From: Vulcanococcus sp. Clear-D1
GTDB lineage: Bacteria; Cyanobacteriota; Cyanobacteriia; PCC-6307; Cyanobiaceae
Length of the DNA stretch: 64,000 nt
Direction: 5' to 3'
Assembly (NCBI RefSeq): GCF_014654725.1
Contig: NZ_JACVZV010000015.1
Coordinates: 310,001 to 374,000 of the forward strand
The notes under the pieces are model-generated. The model did not search any database and was not told where the DNA came from. It worked only from the letters and a program-made list of their open reading frames with translations. A program made the translations under genes and the position numbers. The stretch's first letter is position 1; each line of letters begins with the position of its first letter. Of the stretch, positions 51,375-58,128 are shown piece after piece.

Positions 51375-51905
51375 TCAGCGGGCGCGAACGTTGTTGTCAG
51401 CCAGACCGCGGCAGAGGTGCTCAAACGGTGCACGCACAACAGCGTTGAGCTGATCGGCGCTGGCCACACCGGCATCCAGGAGCAGCTCGCACACCACATC
51501 CGCCATCAGGGCGATGCTGCGCACGGTGGGGCCGGTGGGCACACCCAGGCTCTTGTAGGTGTCGTCGAGTCCGTTCAGCACCCGCTCGTTGAGGATCGTG
51601 CTGTCGTCAGCCACCAGGGCGTAGCTGGCATAGCGCAGGAAGTAGTCCATGTCGCGCAGGCAGGCGGCCCAACGACGGGTGGTGTAAGCGTTGCCGCCAG
51701 GAAGCAGCAGCTCCGGATCCGACTGCCAGAGGCGCTGGCTGGCTTCGCGCACGATCTCGGCGGCTTCACGGTTGATCAGCTCAACGGCGCTCAGACGGAG
51801 CTGCGCTTGAGAGAAATAGATGGCAATCCGGTCGACCGCATCACGATCGAAATAGCGGCCCAGCTGGTCGTACCGACCGATCAGACCGGTGATGGCATCG
51901 CGCAT
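51375..51905 (-). CDS. apcF: Allophycocyanin beta-18 subunit (ApcF-like)
   Basis: A 176-residue core phycobiliprotein. The chromophore region [20 protein letters not shown] carries the PCB-attachment Cys (about residue 87); further beta-type features are [19 protein letters not shown] and [11 protein letters not shown]. The N-terminus [20 protein letters not shown] and the LPGGNAYTT loop match ApcF better than ApcB. ApcF sits beside ApcE in the terminal emitter of the phycobilisome core. ATG 51905 is chosen; the 15 residues upstream in frame are not conserved. The C-terminus (ADNNVRAR) is a few residues longer than usual. Confidence 0.9.
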
Positions 51906-52039
51906 GGCGTGAAGGATCGACGCACCTGAGCCGGAACGTAGCACCTGCAAACGCCCAGATCCCTTGCCATTGCATGGATCTGATCAAGTTGACAGAAACG
52001 GTTACGCAAGCGAATCCACCCTCACCAGTCGTCGGTTTG

Positions 52040-52053
52040 GTTACACCTGATAC
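52040..52053 (+). promoter_or_regulatory. Putative NtcA site of the glnA promoter
   Basis: GTTACACCTGATAC fits the NtcA consensus as GTT-N8-TAC (GT-N10-AC conserved). A -10-like TACGGT (TAN3T) starts 23 bases downstream at 52077, the spacing of class II NtcA-activated promoters, and glnA is a classical NtcA target. Confidence 0.65.
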
Positions 52054-52076
52054 ACAGAGATGGTCAGGCTGCTCCG

Positions 52077-52082
52077 TACGGT
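52077..52082 (+). promoter_or_regulatory. Putative -10 element of NtcA-dependent glnA promoter
   Basis: TACGGT, form TAN3T, 23 bases after the NtcA half-site and 53 bases before the glnA ATG. A second possible promoter with TTGACA at 51989-51994 lies upstream. Confidence 0.5.
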
Positions 52083-52135
52083 CCCGCGAGCCCGGTTCCA
52101 GGCGGGCTTCCTCTCAGCCTCCAAGCGTTCACGTC

Positions 52136-53554
52136 ATGGCCAAAACCGCCCAGGACGTCCTCCGTCAGATCAAGGACGAGGGCATCGAACTGATTGATCT
52201 CAAGTTCGTCGACCTTCATGGCAAGTGGCAGCACCTCACCGTGTGCCAGGACCTGATCGACGAAGCCGCGTTCACTGAGGGTGTGGCCTTCGACGGCTCC
52301 TCGATCCGCGGTTGGAAAGCGATCAACGAATCGGATATGGCGATGGTGCCGGATCCGAATACCGCTTGGATCGATCCCTTCTACAGCCACAAAACCCTCA
52401 GCCTGATCTGCTCGATCCAGGAGCCCCGCAGCGGCCAGCCCTACGCCCGTTGCCCCCGCGCCCTGGCCCAGAAGGCCCTCGATTACCTCGGCTCGACCGG
52501 TCTGGCTGACACCGCCTACTTCGGTCCGGAACCGGAATTCTTCATCTTCGACGACGTTCGCTACAAGAGCTCCAACGGCTCCAGCTTCTACAGCGTTGAT
52601 TCGATTGAAGCCCCCTGGAACACCGATCGGGTGGAAGAAGGTGGCAACCTCGCCAACAAGATCCAACTGAAGGAGGGCTACTTCCCCGTCGCCCCCAACG
52701 ACACCCTGCAGGACATGCGCAGCGAAATGCTGCTCACGATGGGTGCCCTGGGCGTGCCGATTGAGAAGCAACACCACGAGGTGGCGACAGCCCAGCACGA
52801 ACTCGGTATCAAGTTCGCTGAACTGATCAGCGCCGCCGACAACGTGATGATCTACAAATACGTGGTGCGCAACATTGCCAAGAAATATGGCAAGACCGCC
52901 ACGTTCATGCCCAAGCCGATCTTTGCCGATAACGGCAGCGGCATGCACGTGCACCAGAGCCTGTGGAAGGGCGGCCAGCCCCTGTTCTGGGGTGAAGGCA
53001 CCTACGCCAACCTGTCACAAACCGCCCGCTGGTACATCGGTGGTCTGCTGAAGCATGCCCCCAGCTTCCTGGCCTTCACCAACCCCACCACCAACAGCTA
53101 CAAGCGCCTGGTGCCGGGCTTCGAGGCTCCGGTGAACCTGGTGTATTCCCAGGGCAACCGCTCCGCTGCTGTGCGCATCCCGCTCACCGGCATGAACCCC
53201 AAGGCCAAGCGCCTCGAGTTCCGCTCCGGCGATGCCCTCTCCAACCCCTATCTGGGCTTCGCCGCGATGCTGATGGCCGGCATCGACGGCATCAAGAACC
53301 AGATCGATCCGGGCGACGGCACCGACGTTGACCTGTTCGAACTCTCGGCTGAAGAGCTGGCCAAGATTTCCACGGTCCCCGCTTCTCTGAACGGTTCTCT
53401 GGAAGCCCTCAAGGCCGACCACGAATACCTGCTTGCCGGCGGTGTCTTCAGCGAAGACTTCATCGACAACTGGATCGCCCTGAAGTACGAGGAGGTGCAG
53501 CAGCTGCGTCAGCGGCCTCACCCCCACGAATTCACCATGTACTACGACGCCTGA
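52136..53554 (+). CDS. glnA: Glutamine synthetase type I
   Basis: ATP-dependent ligation of ammonium to glutamate, the entry point of nitrogen. It has 472 residues from ATG 52136 ([16 protein letters not shown]). Motifs: [32 protein letters not shown] (ATP), [17 protein letters not shown] and [14 protein letters not shown]. At the adenylylation-loop position it reads [13 protein letters not shown], with Phe where E. coli has the modified Tyr (NLYDLPPEE), consistent with cyanobacterial GS not being adenylylated. Regulation is probably by NtcA and inactivating factors; gif genes are not in the window. A strong hairpin terminator follows. Confidence 0.97.
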
Positions 53555-53585
53555 TCCACGGATCGCGCTGTCGACGTTGATGAGC

Positions 53586-53637
53586 ACCCCCCGTGGTCTG
53601 GGCCTCAGCCGGCCCGGGGACCGCGGGGGGTTCCTTC
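53586..53637 (+). terminator. Terminator of glnA
   Basis: Long GC-rich inverted repeat CCCCCCG-TGGTC-TGGGCC...GGCCCGGGGACCGCGGGGGG with tail TTCCTTCTTG, 31 bases after the glnA stop. Confidence 0.8.
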
Positions 53638-53719
53638 TTGAACAGTGCGGGGTCGGCCTGTGGTGGAATCAGGAGTCCGCCGTGAGGCCGGCCGTGCCCT
53701 CGTCGCCGAGGTTCTGGTC

Positions 53720-54895
53720 GTGAGCCACGTGTCCAACCATCGTTTGAAGCGTTTCACCATCTGGGTCGCGGCGCCGCTGACCGGTCTGCTGCTCGGCGCA
53801 GCCTCCCTTCAAGCCGTGCCGATGGCACCCAACGTCCTGCGGGTTGGTGTTGTGGATGGCAGTCAGCCCTGCAGCTATCGCGAGGGGGGAGCCTGGCAGG
53901 GGCTTGCGGTGCGGCTGTGGAGTCAGATCGCACAACGGGAGCGGATTCCCTACGTGCTGCAGCCGATGCCCTCGATCCGGGCCATGCTCGAAGCCACGCG
54001 CAAGGGGGGGCTTGATGTCGCGGTGGAGTGCATCAATCTTTCGCCCGATCGTCTGCGCCGCTACCGCTTCAGCCTTCCCTTCCAGGAGGATGGCCAGGCG
54101 CTGATGGTGATCAGCAACCCCTTCAGCCTGGGGCAGGCCTTTCTGAGTGCCCTGTTCAGCGGCACCTTGCTCCGCCTGCTGCTGGTGACGCTGGTGCTCA
54201 CGCTGGCCCTGACAGGGTCCGTCTGGTGGGTGGAAGAACAACCTGAGCGGCGCGCCATGGGCTGGCGACAACAGCTGCGGGGCTTCTCCAGAGTGTTTGC
54301 GGTGATGGTCACAGGCAGCGGCGACGACGCTGTGGTGACCACCAGCCGAGGGCGTGCCCTGGTGCTGCTGGCCTATCTCGTGCGGCTGATCGTCAGCGCC
54401 GTGCTGGTTGGTTTTCTCACCGTTGAGCTGGTGCAGGAAGCCCAGGGCCGAGCCGGCAGGCGGGTGCAGAGGCTCAGCGACCTCGCCGGTCTGCGGGTTG
54501 GGCTCAAACCTGGCACCGTGAGCGAAACACTGGTGCATGAGATCAACCGCAGCAGCGGAACCGATCAGGCCGTGATCGTGCCGATCGCTCGCATCGACCA
54601 GGCCCTGAATGCACTGGGCCGGGAGCAGATCGACGTGATGCTGGCCGATGAGCTGCAACTCAGATACCTGATCGCCAGCAATCAATCACCCAACATCATT
54701 CCCGTGCTCGCCATTCAGGGAATCCGGCCGGAACTCCAGGGCTTCGCCCTCTCTCCCAGCCTGCCTGCCGATCTGGTGCGACGCATTGATCTGGCCATCA
54801 GCGAGCTGAAACGCAGTGGCGTGGTTCAGGATTTGCACCGCCAAGCCCTGGCGGGTTCGGAGGAGCTCAACCAGGACTCCAGGAACGGAGATTGA
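53720..54895 (+). CDS. Prokaryotic ionotropic-glutamate-receptor-like protein (split solute-binding domain with inserted channel)
   Basis: A 391-residue protein with signal peptide (about 11-33), first half of an SBP_bac_3 domain (37-133: VLRVGVVDGSQPC; SPDRLRRYRFSLPF), helix M1 (150-170), an amphipathic pore-loop segment (188-206: RVFAVMVTGSGDDAV), helix M2 (213-236), then the second half of the binding domain (253-378: LAGLRVGLKPGTVSE; VMLADELQLRYLI). This order is that of GluR0-type receptors. The filter-like stretch VTGSGD replaces TVGYGD, so selectivity, or channel activity at all, is uncertain. GTG 53720 is chosen (GTG 53645 is possible). It lies 165 bases after glnA and overlaps the convergent SBP-TRIC gene by 29 bases. 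Confidence 0.82.
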   Translation: MSHVSNHRLKRFTIWVAAPLTGLLLGAASLQAVPMAPNVLRVGVVDGSQPCSYREGGAWQGLAVRLWSQIAQRERIPYVLQPMPSIRAMLEATRKGGLDVAVECINLSPDRLRRYRFSLPFQEDGQALMVISNPFSLGQAFLSALFSGTLLRLLLVTLVLTLALTGSVWWVEEQPERRAMGWRQQLRGFSRVFAVMVTGSGDDAVVTTSRGRALVLLAYLVRLIVSAVLVGFLTVELVQEAQGRAGRRVQRLSDLAGLRVGLKPGTVSETLVHEINRSSGTDQAVIVPIARIDQALNALGREQIDVMLADELQLRYLIASNQSPNIIPVLAIQGIRPELQGFALSPSLPADLVRRIDLAISELKRSGVVQDLHRQALAGSEELNQDSRNGD

Positions 54896-56594
54896 ACTGC
54901 ACCACGAGCTGCCGGGTGACAAACACAAAGATCCAACTCAGGATCATCACAACCAGGACAGGCCACTGCAGGGTTTCGAACTGGTCGGCGACCAGGAGAC
55001 CCACGATCAGCAGCAAAGCACCCGCAACCGCGATCTCCTCATAGGGTTCGCCCTGGAAGGTCCGGGGTTCACGCCCGGTCACCACGTCGAGCAGCATGCC
55101 TCCGCCGGCACAGGTGAGCGCCGCGCAGATCGGCATCCACCACCAGCTCAGATCACCCTCAAGGGCAACCTGTGCGCCGATGATCGTGAAGGTGGCCAGA
55201 CCGACACTGTCGCAGACGCCCAGAACGCGATTGAAGCGTTGACCATCTGCAGCCCCACTGGACAGCAGGCCCGCCAGCACAGACCCTGCCGCCACCACCA
55301 GTGCAACCACCAGCAGATAGGTGCTGTCCTTGAAGATGAACGGAGGTGATCGCATGCCGCCGATCAACAGATCGCGCAGCGTTCCTCCGCCGACGGCTGG
55401 CAACAGGGTGAGGATGAAGCATCCCCAGAGGTCATAGCGGCGCTGCAGGGCATGCAGGAAGCCTGACAAGGCAAAGGCAGCCGTGCCCACCAGGTCCAGC
55501 CCGTAAAACCATGGAGATTGAACCAAGGCGGAAAACACCTGTCGCCCCGCCGGGCCAAGGGGCCCGCGCTGCGGCCCATCGATCCGGGCTGCCCTCCAGA
55601 TCTTCAGGCTCCAGGCACCTTCGGCCGCATTCCGGATGGCCGCTTCGTGACCACTCCCCTGCCCCACAATCGCCGCACTGCGGGCAAAGCTGACCGGATC
55701 CAGCAGAGCAAAGCCTCGGCTGAGGTCCATCAGCTTCAGAATCTCCTGAAGCATGTCGGCTTGATGCTGGCTGTCACTGTGGGTCATATAACGTTCCGTG
55801 ATCGCAACAGCTTCCTGAGGATGCCGGGAGGCGTAGCGCCAACCGCGCGCGAGGCCACGCAGCAGGCGAATCAATCGTGCTCGCTTCGTGGGGTCCTGCA
55901 GATCAGAACCACGCACATACAGACCATCCTCGAGAAAGCCGCTGTTCTCCAGAGCAAAACGCACAGTGAACAGCCTTGATTGGAAGGCTCCTGCTCTGAG
56001 AACGGTCTGAAATTCGTTGTAGCTCATGGCCGTGGCGCAATCCACGCGGCCATCGAGCAGATCCTGGGCAGCGGGACGCTGCCGGACCAGACGAACATCC
56101 TTCAGATCCAGCCCATGGGACCTGAGCCAGTGGCCCACATCAAACTGATCACCCAGGAACCAGGTGCCAATCCGCTTCCCCTTGAGGTCAAGCGGTTGTT
56201 TCACACCGGATTCAGCGCTGCAGATCAGCATCGTGCCCGAACGCTGCAGCAACTGAGCCACATTGACCAGATCAGCGCCCTGACGGCGAAGATCCAGAGC
56301 ATCGGATGACCAGCCGATCGCCACATCGGCCTCACCATCGATCAGCCGCTGCAGACCGTTGATGGATGGTCCACCCGGTTGAAGGGAAACGGCCAGGCCT
56401 TCGTTCTCAAAGAACTTGAGATCCTTGGCGACATAAAAACCGGCAAACTGGGCCTGGGGAAGCCAGCGCAGCTGAACGCGCAGGGGCTGCTGCATGCCTC
56501 TGGCTTCACCTGGGGGCAGAGCCGTGAGGCCCAGGGCGAGCAGCATCAGGAGCAGAACTGCCCGAATCCGCCGAAGCCATCGAGGGCCGCGCAT
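54867..56594 (-). CDS. Fusion: NMT1/THI5-type solute-binding domain plus TRIC cation channel domain
   Basis: A 575-residue protein with signal peptide (about 11-33), then a periplasmic type II binding domain (36-335) whose opening LRWLPQAQFAGFYVAKDLKF and GEADVAIGWSSDAL match the NMT1/THI5/SsuA family. From about 363 to 562 there are seven hydrophobic helices forming a TRIC (formerly UPF0126) domain: YGLDLVGTAAFALSGFLHAL, the glycine-rich AVGGGTLRDLLIGG (400-413), CDSVGLATFTIIGAQVAL and the second repeat CAGGGMLLDVVTG (495-507). TRIC proteins are K+-permeable channels whose N-terminus faces outside, which fits a periplasmic N-terminal receptor. ATG 56594 is used. No kinase or GGDEF module is present. 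Confidence 0.85.
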   Translation of the reverse strand: MRGPRWLRRIRAVLLLMLLALGLTALPPGEARGMQQPLRVQLRWLPQAQFAGFYVAKDLKFFENEGLAVSLQPGGPSINGLQRLIDGEADVAIGWSSDALDLRRQGADLVNVAQLLQRSGTMLICSAESGVKQPLDLKGKRIGTWFLGDQFDVGHWLRSHGLDLKDVRLVRQRPAAQDLLDGRVDCATAMSYNEFQTVLRAGAFQSRLFTVRFALENSGFLEDGLYVRGSDLQDPTKRARLIRLLRGLARGWRYASRHPQEAVAITERYMTHSDSQHQADMLQEILKLMDLSRGFALLDPVSFARSAAIVGQGSGHEAAIRNAAEGAWSLKIWRAARIDGPQRGPLGPAGRQVFSALVQSPWFYGLDLVGTAAFALSGFLHALQRRYDLWGCFILTLLPAVGGGTLRDLLIGGMRSPPFIFKDSTYLLVVALVVAAGSVLAGLLSSGAADGQRFNRVLGVCDSVGLATFTIIGAQVALEGDLSWWWMPICAALTCAGGGMLLDVVTGREPRTFQGEPYEEIAVAGALLLIVGLLVADQFETLQWPVLVVMILSWIFVFVTRQLVVQFNLRSWSPG

Positions 56595-56642
56595 GACCAC
56601 ACGATTCAGTGGGCCGAGCGTAGATCGCTAGAACGTGCCAGA

Positions 56643-56663
56643 GCCTGTTCGCCATGAACAGGC
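56643..56663 (-). terminator. Hairpin after the 71-residue His-rich protein gene
   Basis: Perfect 8-bp stem GCCTGTTC-...-GAACAGGC with a 5-base loop, 16 bases after the stop at 56679 on the minus strand; the tail is only weakly T-rich (TCTGG). Confidence 0.5.
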
Positions 56664-56678
56664 CCGAGGCCCGGTGGT

Positions 56679-56894
56679 TCAGTCGTGGCGGATCTGAGCG
56701 ATGGCGCTGTCGTGCAGCCGGCGCTCATGGGCATGGCGCTCCGCCCAGGCCACTTCCTGGGAATGCACGCCGGACGCTTCGCTCTGATCGGCGGTGGCGT
56801 GGCGTTGAGCGACGACGGGCTGGTGACGACGCTGCTCAATCTGACGGTGCCGCATGTACTCCACAAACAGTGGCTCGCCTTGAGAGGCTTTCAT
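56679..56894 (-). CDS. Small His/Arg-rich protein with strong ribosome binding site
   Basis: A 71-residue protein, MKASQGEPLFVEYMRHRQIE at the start, with eight His and about ten Arg, often as (R/A/V)H pairs, and no membrane segment; likely helical. A strong Shine-Dalgarno GGAGGGTGAG sits directly before the ATG, rare among its neighbours, and a hairpin follows the stop, so it is very probably expressed. No family recognised. Metal binding or nucleic-acid binding are possible from composition only. Confidence 0.72.
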   Translation of the reverse strand: MKASQGEPLFVEYMRHRQIEQRRHQPVVAQRHATADQSEASGVHSQEVAWAERHAHERRLHDSAIAQIRHD

Positions 56895-57072
56895 CTCACC
56901 CTCCGGGGTGATCGCATGGATTCATTCTGTAGCGGTTGCTACGGAAATCCGATCTGCTCCACGAAACGTGATCTGCGTTCGTTAGGGCACAGAAGAGCGC
57001 GTGGACCTGGCCGATCGCGATCCAGGCCGTGATCCGTTGGAATGGGGCATCGCTGCGACGTTGCCTCGCTCC

Positions 57073-58128
57073 ATGGCCGACACCCTCACCAAGCTCGCCT
57101 ATCAGGCCCTGCAGCAGGGCAAGAGCCTGGTGGGTGTCGCCCATAAGGAGGTGAGCACCAAGTTGATGGAGCTGGTGGCCCCCCAGGGAGCACCGAAAAC
57201 ACGGCCAATCCCTCCGCAGATGCTGATGGATCTGCAAGCCGCCAATTCGGCATTGATGGAGATCGATTGGGAAGAAGCCGAGCAGGGGCTCTACCCCACC
57301 AGCCTTCTCTTCGATGCTCCCTGGCTGGATTGGGCCGCCCGCTATCCGATGGTGTGGCTCGACATGCCCAGCACCTGGAATCGGCGCAGTGAACGCAACG
57401 TGAGCGACCTGCCGCCGGATGTGGAGAGCGACAACTATCCCGACTACTACCTCCAGAACTTCCATCACCAAACTGATGGCTACCTGAGCGATCACTCCGC
57501 CTCGCTCTACGACCTGCAGGTGGAGATCCTGTTCAACGGCACCGCTGATCCAATGCGGCGCCGTGTGATCAAACCGCTGGTGCAGGGCCTGAGAGCGTTT
57601 GCAGAGCGGCCGGCTTCCCAGCTGCGGGTGCTGGATGTGGCCACCGGCACCGGCCGCACCCTGCGGCAGGTGCGTGCAGCCCTGCCGCAGGTGCAGCTGG
57701 TGGGCCTCGATCTCTCGTCCGCCTATCTGCGTCAGGCCAACCGCTGGCTCAGCCAGCTGCCGGATGAACTCCCGCAACTGGTGCAGGGCAATGGCGAGAG
57801 CATGCCTTTCGCCAGCGGCAGCATGCAGGGCGTGACCTGCGTGTTCCTGCTGCACGAGCTGCCCGGCGATGCTCGCCAGAACGTGATCGATGAGTGCTTC
57901 CGTGTTCTGGAGCCCGGCGGTGTTCTGGTGCTTGCTGATTCCGTGCAGCTGGCGGATTCTCCCCAGTTCGAAACAGCCATGGATAACTTCCGCCGCGTAT
58001 TCCACGAGCCGTACTACCGCGATTACATCGGCGATGACATTGAGGCGCGCCTCACTGCCACTGGCTTCAGCGGCATCCGCGCCACCTCGCATCTGATGAC
58101 GCGGGTGTGGAGTGCCACCAAGCCCTGA
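57073..58128 (+). CDS. Class I SAM-dependent methyltransferase
   Basis: A 351-residue protein. The N-terminal 170 residues are a cyanobacteria-type extension (LTKLAYQALQQGKSLVGVAH; NYPDYYLQNFHHQTDGYLS). The C-terminal Rossmann methyltransferase has motif I VLDVATGTGRTLRQVRAAL near residue 188, the acidic loop LVGLDLSSAYL, and FRVLEPGGVLVLADSV near residue 278. The combination resembles ubiquinone/menaquinone-type (UbiE-like) methyltransferases, but the substrate is unknown. ATG 57073 is chosen; frame is open to 57001. Confidence 0.88.
   Translation: MADTLTKLAYQALQQGKSLVGVAHKEVSTKLMELVAPQGAPKTRPIPPQMLMDLQAANSALMEIDWEEAEQGLYPTSLLFDAPWLDWAARYPMVWLDMPSTWNRRSERNVSDLPPDVESDNYPDYYLQNFHHQTDGYLSDHSASLYDLQVEILFNGTADPMRRRVIKPLVQGLRAFAERPASQLRVLDVATGTGRTLRQVRAALPQVQLVGLDLSSAYLRQANRWLSQLPDELPQLVQGNGESMPFASGSMQGVTCVFLLHELPGDARQNVIDECFRVLEPGGVLVLADSVQLADSPQFETAMDNFRRVFHEPYYRDYIGDDIEARLTATGFSGIRATSHLMTRVWSATKP

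Follow-up and report, generated by a model that had tools for sequence, protein, structure and literature searches.

In the 64,000-nucleotide stretch of Vulcanococcus sp. Clear-D1 analyzed here (hereafter the window), two convergent genes lie beside glnA. One of them, P0002, encodes a solute-binding protein (SBP) of the NMT1/THI5 type and a TRIC-family pore domain in a single chain. We propose, with a probability of roughly 0.5, that P0002 is a receptor-tethered TRIC pore whose ligand would be pyrimidine-like and in which closing of the SBP would control the pore, most likely by gating. The domain content and order of P0002, its occurrence as one frame in five genomes, its pore motifs and a changed residue of the cytoplasmic lock were seen directly. 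The other gene, P0001, encodes a relative of the prokaryotic ionotropic glutamate receptors (iGluRs).

Both open reading frames (ORFs) proved open over their full lengths with a 29-base overlap, and in each of them a ligand-binding domain is joined to a pore-type domain, as judged by Pfam, hydropathy and relatives of solved structure. A first-pass annotation of the window was right in these respects; its further proposal, that the pair forms a two-channel sensing locus, fared badly when relatives were compared.

P0002 joins a binding protein to a TRIC pore domain

The make-up given to P0002 in the first-pass annotation (signal peptide, NMT1/THI5-type binding domain and seven-helix TRIC domain) was recovered by Pfam and hydropathy. 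Residues 48-262 matched NMT1 (PF09084) with 114.7 bits against a cut-off of 20.5 (E 8e-33). The membrane half matched TRIC/UPF0126 (PF03458) in two stretches with 105 bits against a cut-off of 23.5 (E 2e-30), the two repeats scoring 67.7 and 52.3 bits singly, and PF03458 was the only Pfam family above cut-off there. Hydropathy gave the signal-like segment and seven segments between residues 365 and 567. The two halves differ in their closest relatives: the best-scoring solved relatives of the membrane half were TRIC channels, while those of the binding half include the thiamin-pyrimidine proteins 3ix1, THI5 and THI13. The features of P0002 are as follows.

54867..56594, minus strand: P0002, NMT1/THI5-type solute-binding protein and TRIC (PF03458) pore domain in one chain, 575 amino acids
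56496..56594, minus strand: signal-peptide-like N-terminus, residues 1-33 (limits by eye), with a hydrophobic segment at 10-28
55809..56453, minus strand: NMT1/THI5 binding domain, residues 48-262 (Pfam)
55542..55580, minus strand: linker with GPLGPAGR, residues 339-351
54885..55505, minus strand: seven-helix TRIC domain, residues 364-570, with GGG402-404, D462, F469, GGG497-499 and Y518
55089..55091, minus strand: codon of Leu502, at the position of the SaTRIC lock residue R139

The fusion occurs as one frame in five genomes: the window's own, which belongs to the picocyanobacterial family f1, G051 (UW105), G075, G034 and AG-673-A03. Full-length relatives with 72-73% identity were thus found in three others of 200 genomes of the order and in AG-673-A03; locus L071 is the same contig as G051 and was counted once. 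The named carriers are Synechococcus sp. UW105 and AG-673-A03. Because the single frame recurs in four other genomes, the fusion is no assembly error. Among 72,556 plasmid records searched with P0002, none had one place covering 80% of it.

Like the solved TRIC/UPF0126 proteins (PF03458; 5wuc, 5wuf, 5h35 and 5h36), P0002 has two repeats and seven hydrophobic segments, with GGG in transmembrane helices 2 and 5 (TM2 and TM5) and equivalents of D99, F106, D140 and Y155. It differs from them in its N-terminal, putatively periplasmic binding protein and in having Leu for the lock residue R139. The solved TRIC chains are 212-249 amino acids long and so have no room for a receptor domain.

According to PMC5477506, residues D99, R139, D140 and Y155 together shut SaTRIC on its cytoplasmic side, and TM2 and TM5 are kinked at triplets of glycine. 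The lock is a gating feature of characterised prokaryotic TRICs and not a criterion of homology. We took 5wuc to be SaTRIC because its residue numbers agree with those of that paper. By alignment, P0002 keeps the equivalents of F20, both GGG motifs, D99 (D462), F106, D140 (D503) and Y155 (Y518), and the pore-lining glycine, Phe and Asp positions are identical in the five NMT1 fusions. The lock is nevertheless incomplete, with Leu502 at the R139 position. Leu stands there in all five NMT1 fusions and Met in three of three unfused relatives, as against Arg in 12/12 fusions of TRIC to a family 3 SBP (SBP_bac_3) and in 13/13 other TRICs. The equivalent gate of SsTRIC contains R137, and R137A is a gain-of-function change (PMC5401562). 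The cytoplasmic lock may be weaker in the P0002 clade.

The TRIC half of P0002 is 54% identical to two of three unfused TRICs (G142, G144 and G102) and 48% identical to the third; by eye, these proteins start with a hydrophobic segment. The LGPxGR part of the linker is also present in the unfused L007 and L008, which would fit the insertion or removal of an SBP at that point. The unfused TRIC gene of the genus relative G102 (L068 7087-7800) comes after a gene matching TMEM175 (PF06736, a lysosomal K+ channel family; 28.7 bits against a cut-off of 25).

The fusion gene is flanked by gatB and thiO in the other genomes

In all four other genomes the fusion gene is situated between gatB and thiO, the latter encoding an FAD oxidase (glycine oxidase). 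gatB was named by Pfam in two of the four and recognized by sequence, or by position and length, in the other two. For thiO, TIGR02352 scored above its NCBIfam cut-off in the two genomes tested, and a homologue stands at the fusion-adjacent place in G051, G075 and G034. The stop codon of the fusion and the start codon of thiO overlap as ATGA in all four cases (L057 4382, L058 10008, L059 10161 and L070 6728), which suggests that translation of a putative glycine/TRIC-family pore is coupled to that of glycine oxidase.

The window's genome has gatB and thiO adjacent, with no fusion between them. A thiO homologue is found in 196 of the 200 genomes of the order, so that the presence of thiO is independent of the fusion. 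At the Rfam gathering score, the five fusion loci contained no thiamin pyrophosphate (TPP) riboswitch and no other family; nor was there any match at E up to 1 in window positions 51900-57200. Control of the fusion by a thiamin riboswitch was rejected on the lack of an Rfam match in the five loci.

A second fusion type shares the TRIC branch

Genes joining SBP_bac_3 to TRIC were found in eight picocyanobacterial genomes (L010-L016 and L018) and in one metagenome-assembled genome (MAG) of the Opitutales (L072). Four of these nine proteins were scanned by Pfam, and all four had both domains. A profile of the nine matched, as one frame each, in 4 of 337 genomes of the phylum of the Opitutales MAG (itself included), 120 of which have some PF03458 gene. 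PF03458 occurs in 16/386 genomes of the cyanobacterial phylum, with open frames of 543-625 amino acids in six genomes of family f1 and of 205-240 amino acids in the ten others; four f1 genomes in the 200-genome set of the order (G102, G142, G144 and G150) also have an unfused TRIC. The ten SBP_bac_3-TRIC loci had no neighboring ORF cluster common to all, some clusters recurring in up to four. In L072 (4068-6278, 736 amino acids) and L152 (open frame of 768 amino acids) an extra C-terminal region follows the TRIC domain; that of L072 had no Pfam match.

These proteins share with P0002 the order signal-SBP-TRIC and the same TRIC branch; they differ from it in the SBP, which is of family 3 (the amino-acid class), and in keeping R139. 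In a tree of 33 TRIC domains, one branch held 12 SBP_bac_3 fusions, five NMT1 fusions and three of the unfused f1 TRICs, apart from 13 other stand-alone TRICs and with support 98/96, subject to a warning of long branches meeting and to a stand-alone set biased to rows with clear motifs. That set came from 20 candidates (eight from the 386-genome set, L017, and 11 of 30 other loci), seven of which were left out, six by a crude filter for the two glycine motifs plus L052, whose frame had been misread. One reading of the tree is that a single pore lineage has exchanged its binding proteins; the alternative reading is that the two fusion types arose by independent fusions.

Among the papers listed in our literature searches, none was seen to deal with SBP-TRIC fusions, and an earlier mention is possible. 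Silverio and Saier, in 2011, reportedly discussed domains fused to prokaryotic TRICs. The domains of SBP-TRIC proteins are known; their combination is little-known and recurrent.

The ligand of P0002 is probably pyrimidine-like

The best matches of the SBP half were binding proteins of ABC systems with 35-38% identity, its SBP family and nearest relatives being NMT1/THI5 ABC binding proteins, several of them from pyrimidine-catabolic clusters. In contrast to P0002, these are free-standing and mostly encoded beside permease and ATPase genes. No ABC genes were found by Pfam among the tested neighbors of P0002 in the window (glnA, P0001, a methyltransferase, a phycobilisome protein and a small ORF without a match), and its flanks in the relatives are gatB and thiO.

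We examined the surroundings of 12 hand-picked, better-covered SBP relatives (29-38% identity), 10 of which were annotated. A dihydropyrimidinase lay within 6-7 kb in six of these 10 neighborhoods (a Klebsiella plasmid, S. meliloti, Roseinatronobacter, Thalassospira and two Deinococcus) as compared to none of seven controls, which were weaker relatives whose matches covered 30-53% of the half. These counts lack independence, since the two Azospirillum neighborhoods among the 10 repeat each other, as do the two of Deinococcus and three of the seven controls. In the SBP tree the fusion SBPs formed one clade beside the dihydropyrimidinase-linked proteins, with support 91/90 at a node that was not starred and carried long-branch and composition warnings. 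The ligand class of P0002 is thus probably pyrimidine-like, and an earlier guess to this effect fits the relatives.

A receptor-tethered pore and its rivals

Under the proposed mechanism, P0002 would be exported and its NMT1/THI5 domain would stand in the periplasm at the N-terminal, outer end of the TRIC domain. TRIC channels are N-out, as inferred from loop positions in PMC5477506, and an exported SBP on the N-terminus would therefore lie over the outer mouth of the pore. The domain would bind a small pyrimidine-like ligand, and its closing would control what passes through the TRIC pore, most likely as a gate. This topology, a trimeric assembly, the ligand class and the control of the pore are predictions.

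Several observations weigh against this proposal. SaTRIC R139A behaved like the wild type at 20 mV (PMC5477506). R139 is also lost, to Met, in the three relatives without an SBP; since these unfused proteins lack the Arg too, the change alone is no evidence for gating by the SBP. The Asn144 position was tried as a mark of receptor control and rejected because it varies in stand-alone TRICs as well. A structure model of P0002 built from four sequences had a mean predicted local distance difference test score (pLDDT) of 50, too poor to use. As to the ligand, besides the repeated entries in the counts above, four of the 10 annotated neighborhoods (two Azospirillum, a Paracoccus and a Neorhizobium) had no dihydropyrimidinase nearby, and the branch leading to the fusion SBPs is long (1.41), so that their specificity may have changed. 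The nearest NCBIfam model of the SBP half was the aliphatic-sulfonate protein SsuA, which scored below cut-off (30.5 bits for P0002 and 48 bits for L070, cut-off 163.5); the sulfonate-like ligand named as an alternative in the first-pass annotation is thus conceivable. Finally, the host genome has no dihydropyrimidinase above cut-off (best score 28 bits against 393), and pyrimidine catabolism in the host by way of this enzyme was rejected for that reason.

TRAP and TTT systems are SBP-dependent secondary transporters, and P0002 would work alike if it were an SBP-fed carrier, although its membrane part is PF03458 and not DctQM or TctAB. A carrier of this manner, for glycine or another small metabolite, whose fused SBP would pick up the substrate or a co-substrate, is the more serious rival, albeit a less likely one than a gated pore. 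In the gatB-thiO genomes it would supply the thiamin pathway, with either glycine for ThiO or the thiamin pyrimidine. UPF0126 genes were important for glycine utilization in 11 bacteria (reviewed in PMC12173739), and the Pfam name of PF03458 is “Glycine transporter”. The ATGA overlap with the glycine oxidase gene in 4/4 other genomes, and the presence of 3ix1 and THI5/THI13 among the solved SBP relatives, point the same way. On the other hand, thiO is present with or without the fusion, the window's genome has gatB and thiO adjacent without it, and the four coupled genomes may reflect one insertion. The absence of TPP riboswitches and other Rfam families from the fusion loci also speaks against a carrier, as does the recording of SaTRIC as a K+ channel (PMC5477506). 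In the eight picocyanobacterial SBP_bac_3-TRIC genomes, moreover, thiO lies at a distance of 298 kb or more, or on a different contig.

Another possibility is that the TRIC half is a mere membrane anchor or scaffold for a periplasmic receptor, with no solute passing through it. Loss of R139 in the P0002 clade agrees with this in that some of the usual constraints on the domain are lacking. We consider it improbable, however, because an inert anchor would not need the pore-lining Gly, Phe and Asp residues that are the same in the five fusions.

Beyond P0002 itself, it is conceivable, though we would put it below even odds, that SBP-TRIC proteins form a separate, modular class of ligand-controlled pores, one TRIC lineage having acquired SBPs of family 3 and of the NMT1/THI5 type by swapping. 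In the boldest version of this idea, a thiamin-pyrimidine receptor in the gatB-thiO genomes would control the entry of glycine for ThiO and so balance the two halves of thiamin.

P0001 is a relative of the prokaryotic ionotropic glutamate receptors

The features of P0001, and its overlap with P0002, are as follows.

53720..54895, plus strand: P0001, prokaryotic iGluR-like receptor (signal segment, S1, transmembrane segment, pore loop, transmembrane segment, S2), 391 amino acids
54867..54895: convergent overlap of the P0001 and P0002 frames, 29 bases
53837..54118, plus strand: residues 40-133, the S1 half of the SBP_bac_3 ligand domain, containing the invariant Arg111
54167..54223, plus strand: membrane segment 1, residues 150-168 (hydropathy)
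54275..54340, plus strand: pore-loop region, TGSGDD, without K+ signature (alignment)
54359..54415, plus strand: membrane segment 2, residues 214-232 (hydropathy)
54461..54841, plus strand: residues 248-374, the S2 half of the ligand domain, containing the invariant Asp310

A single SBP_bac_3 match (Pfam, E 5e-14) extends from residue 40 to residue 375, its length being due to the interruption of the domain, and hydropathy gave an N-terminal segment and segments at 150-168 and 214-232 flanking a loop. The binding domain split by two helices and a loop, described in the first-pass annotation, is therefore present. Against solved structures, the top match of the P0001 profile was 2pyy, a bacterial iGluR ligand domain (E 3.5e-21), and residues 77-353 aligned to 501-789 of the NMDA receptor chain 7yfg (E 3e-8). 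R111 and D310 are invariant in 15 aligned sequences (its own included) and align with an Arg and an Asp of GlnH, which we take to bind the alpha-carboxylate and alpha-amino groups of the amino acid. C51 and C104 are also invariant in the 15 sequences and could form a disulphide in the ligand domain.

The pore loop carries TGxG in 30 of 30 aligned sequences, again including its own, and no K+ filter of the GYG or GFG kind (TVGYG type) was found in the P0001 sequence. Thus, the likeness to GluR0 drawn earlier holds for the domain order and fails for the GluR0 K+ filter, and P0001 as a GluR0-type K+ channel was rejected on the absence of that filter. Prokaryotic iGluRs fall into Groups 1 (with a K+ filter, including GluR0) and 2 (Ger et al., PMC2950845), and a role in cell-volume control under high K+ has been assigned to GluR0 (PMC13099474). 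P0001 shares with these prokaryotic iGluRs the S1-TM-P-TM-S2 order and the amino-acid Arg and Asp, and differs from GluR0 (Group 1) in having TGxG in place of the K+ filter, which puts it nearer Group 2 than Group 1.

Orthologues (E ≤ 1e-57) are present in 45 of the 200 genomes of the order, its own included, so that P0001 is a known kind of protein; in three of the 45 a stop codon interrupts a matched part or falls between two of them. P0001 is a receptor of the iGluR family, unrelated to P0002, probably with an amino acid as ligand.

The pair is very unlikely to be one locus tied to glnA

The first-pass annotation had read P0001 and P0002 as one sensing locus with two channels, for which glnA would provide the link to nitrogen status. 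In its favor are their adjacency, with the 29-base overlap, in the window's genome, and the presence of a ligand domain in both proteins. However, being convergent, they are not one operon, and among the relatives examined their pairing beside glnA was seen in the window's genome only. None of 18 relative loci (drawn from the 44 other genomes with an orthologue) has P0002 or a glnA orthologue in the roughly 8 kb around P0001; at one of them a glnA-like gene (35%) stands at a distance of about 4 kb. Similarly, the stretches flanking the fusion gene in the other four genomes contain neither P0001 nor glnA. Of the 200 order genomes, 45 have P0001, four have the fusion and one, the window's own, has both, which matches the expectation by chance (about 0.9). 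A lack of adjacency in all relatives had been named beforehand as a finding that would refute the locus, and the pairing was absent from all relatives examined. A joint locus is thus a very improbable reading, and there is nothing among our findings that gives the two proteins a shared function.

The surroundings of glnA, taken from 10 of 12 genomes of the genus, point in the same direction. P0001 and P0002 are absent from all ten, and gene 57001 directly follows glnA in eight and was not found in one. In the genus relative G535 (L092 1676-4075), a different ORF of 500 amino acids stands between glnA and gene 57001, in an interval with a GC content of 0.505 as against 0.604-0.710 in the intervals of six relatives; a different ORF there indicates that this spot accepts insertions. 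By inference from these relatives, both genes appear to have come between glnA and gene 57001 in the window lineage by insertion, and to have moved independently of each other.

One exact NtcA-type box is found near the pair (56929-56942, GTAGCGGTTGCTAC), about 35 bases upstream of a separate ORF of 71 amino acids (56682-56894, minus strand) beside glnA; the exact pattern occurs twice in the window against 0.41 expected. The box is also present in the glnA-57001 interval of seven genus relatives (L091 and L093-L098), whereas L092 and the 53-base interval of L100 lack it. A nitrogen link through this box was rejected because the seven relatives keep it without the pair. The small ORF had no Pfam or NCBIfam match and could, we presume, encode a protein like the glutamine-synthetase inactivating factors; a homologous ORF was read in L091, L093 and L098. 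Between glnA and P0001 there is a GC-rich hairpin (-32.5 kcal/mol; 20 of 200 shuffles fold as well), which a simple terminator scan did not list.

Implications for TRIC proteins

The role of bacterial TRIC proteins is unsettled: recordings point to K+ channels (PMC5477506) and mutant fitness to glycine use (PMC12173739). The fusion makes this question directly testable because the ligand of the SBP can be identified and then tried as substrate or as gate. The two classes of binding protein on a shared TRIC branch suggest that receptors have been swapped. If it is true that the SBP gates the pore, these proteins would be a class of ligand-gated channels unrelated to the iGluRs and to the pentameric channels.

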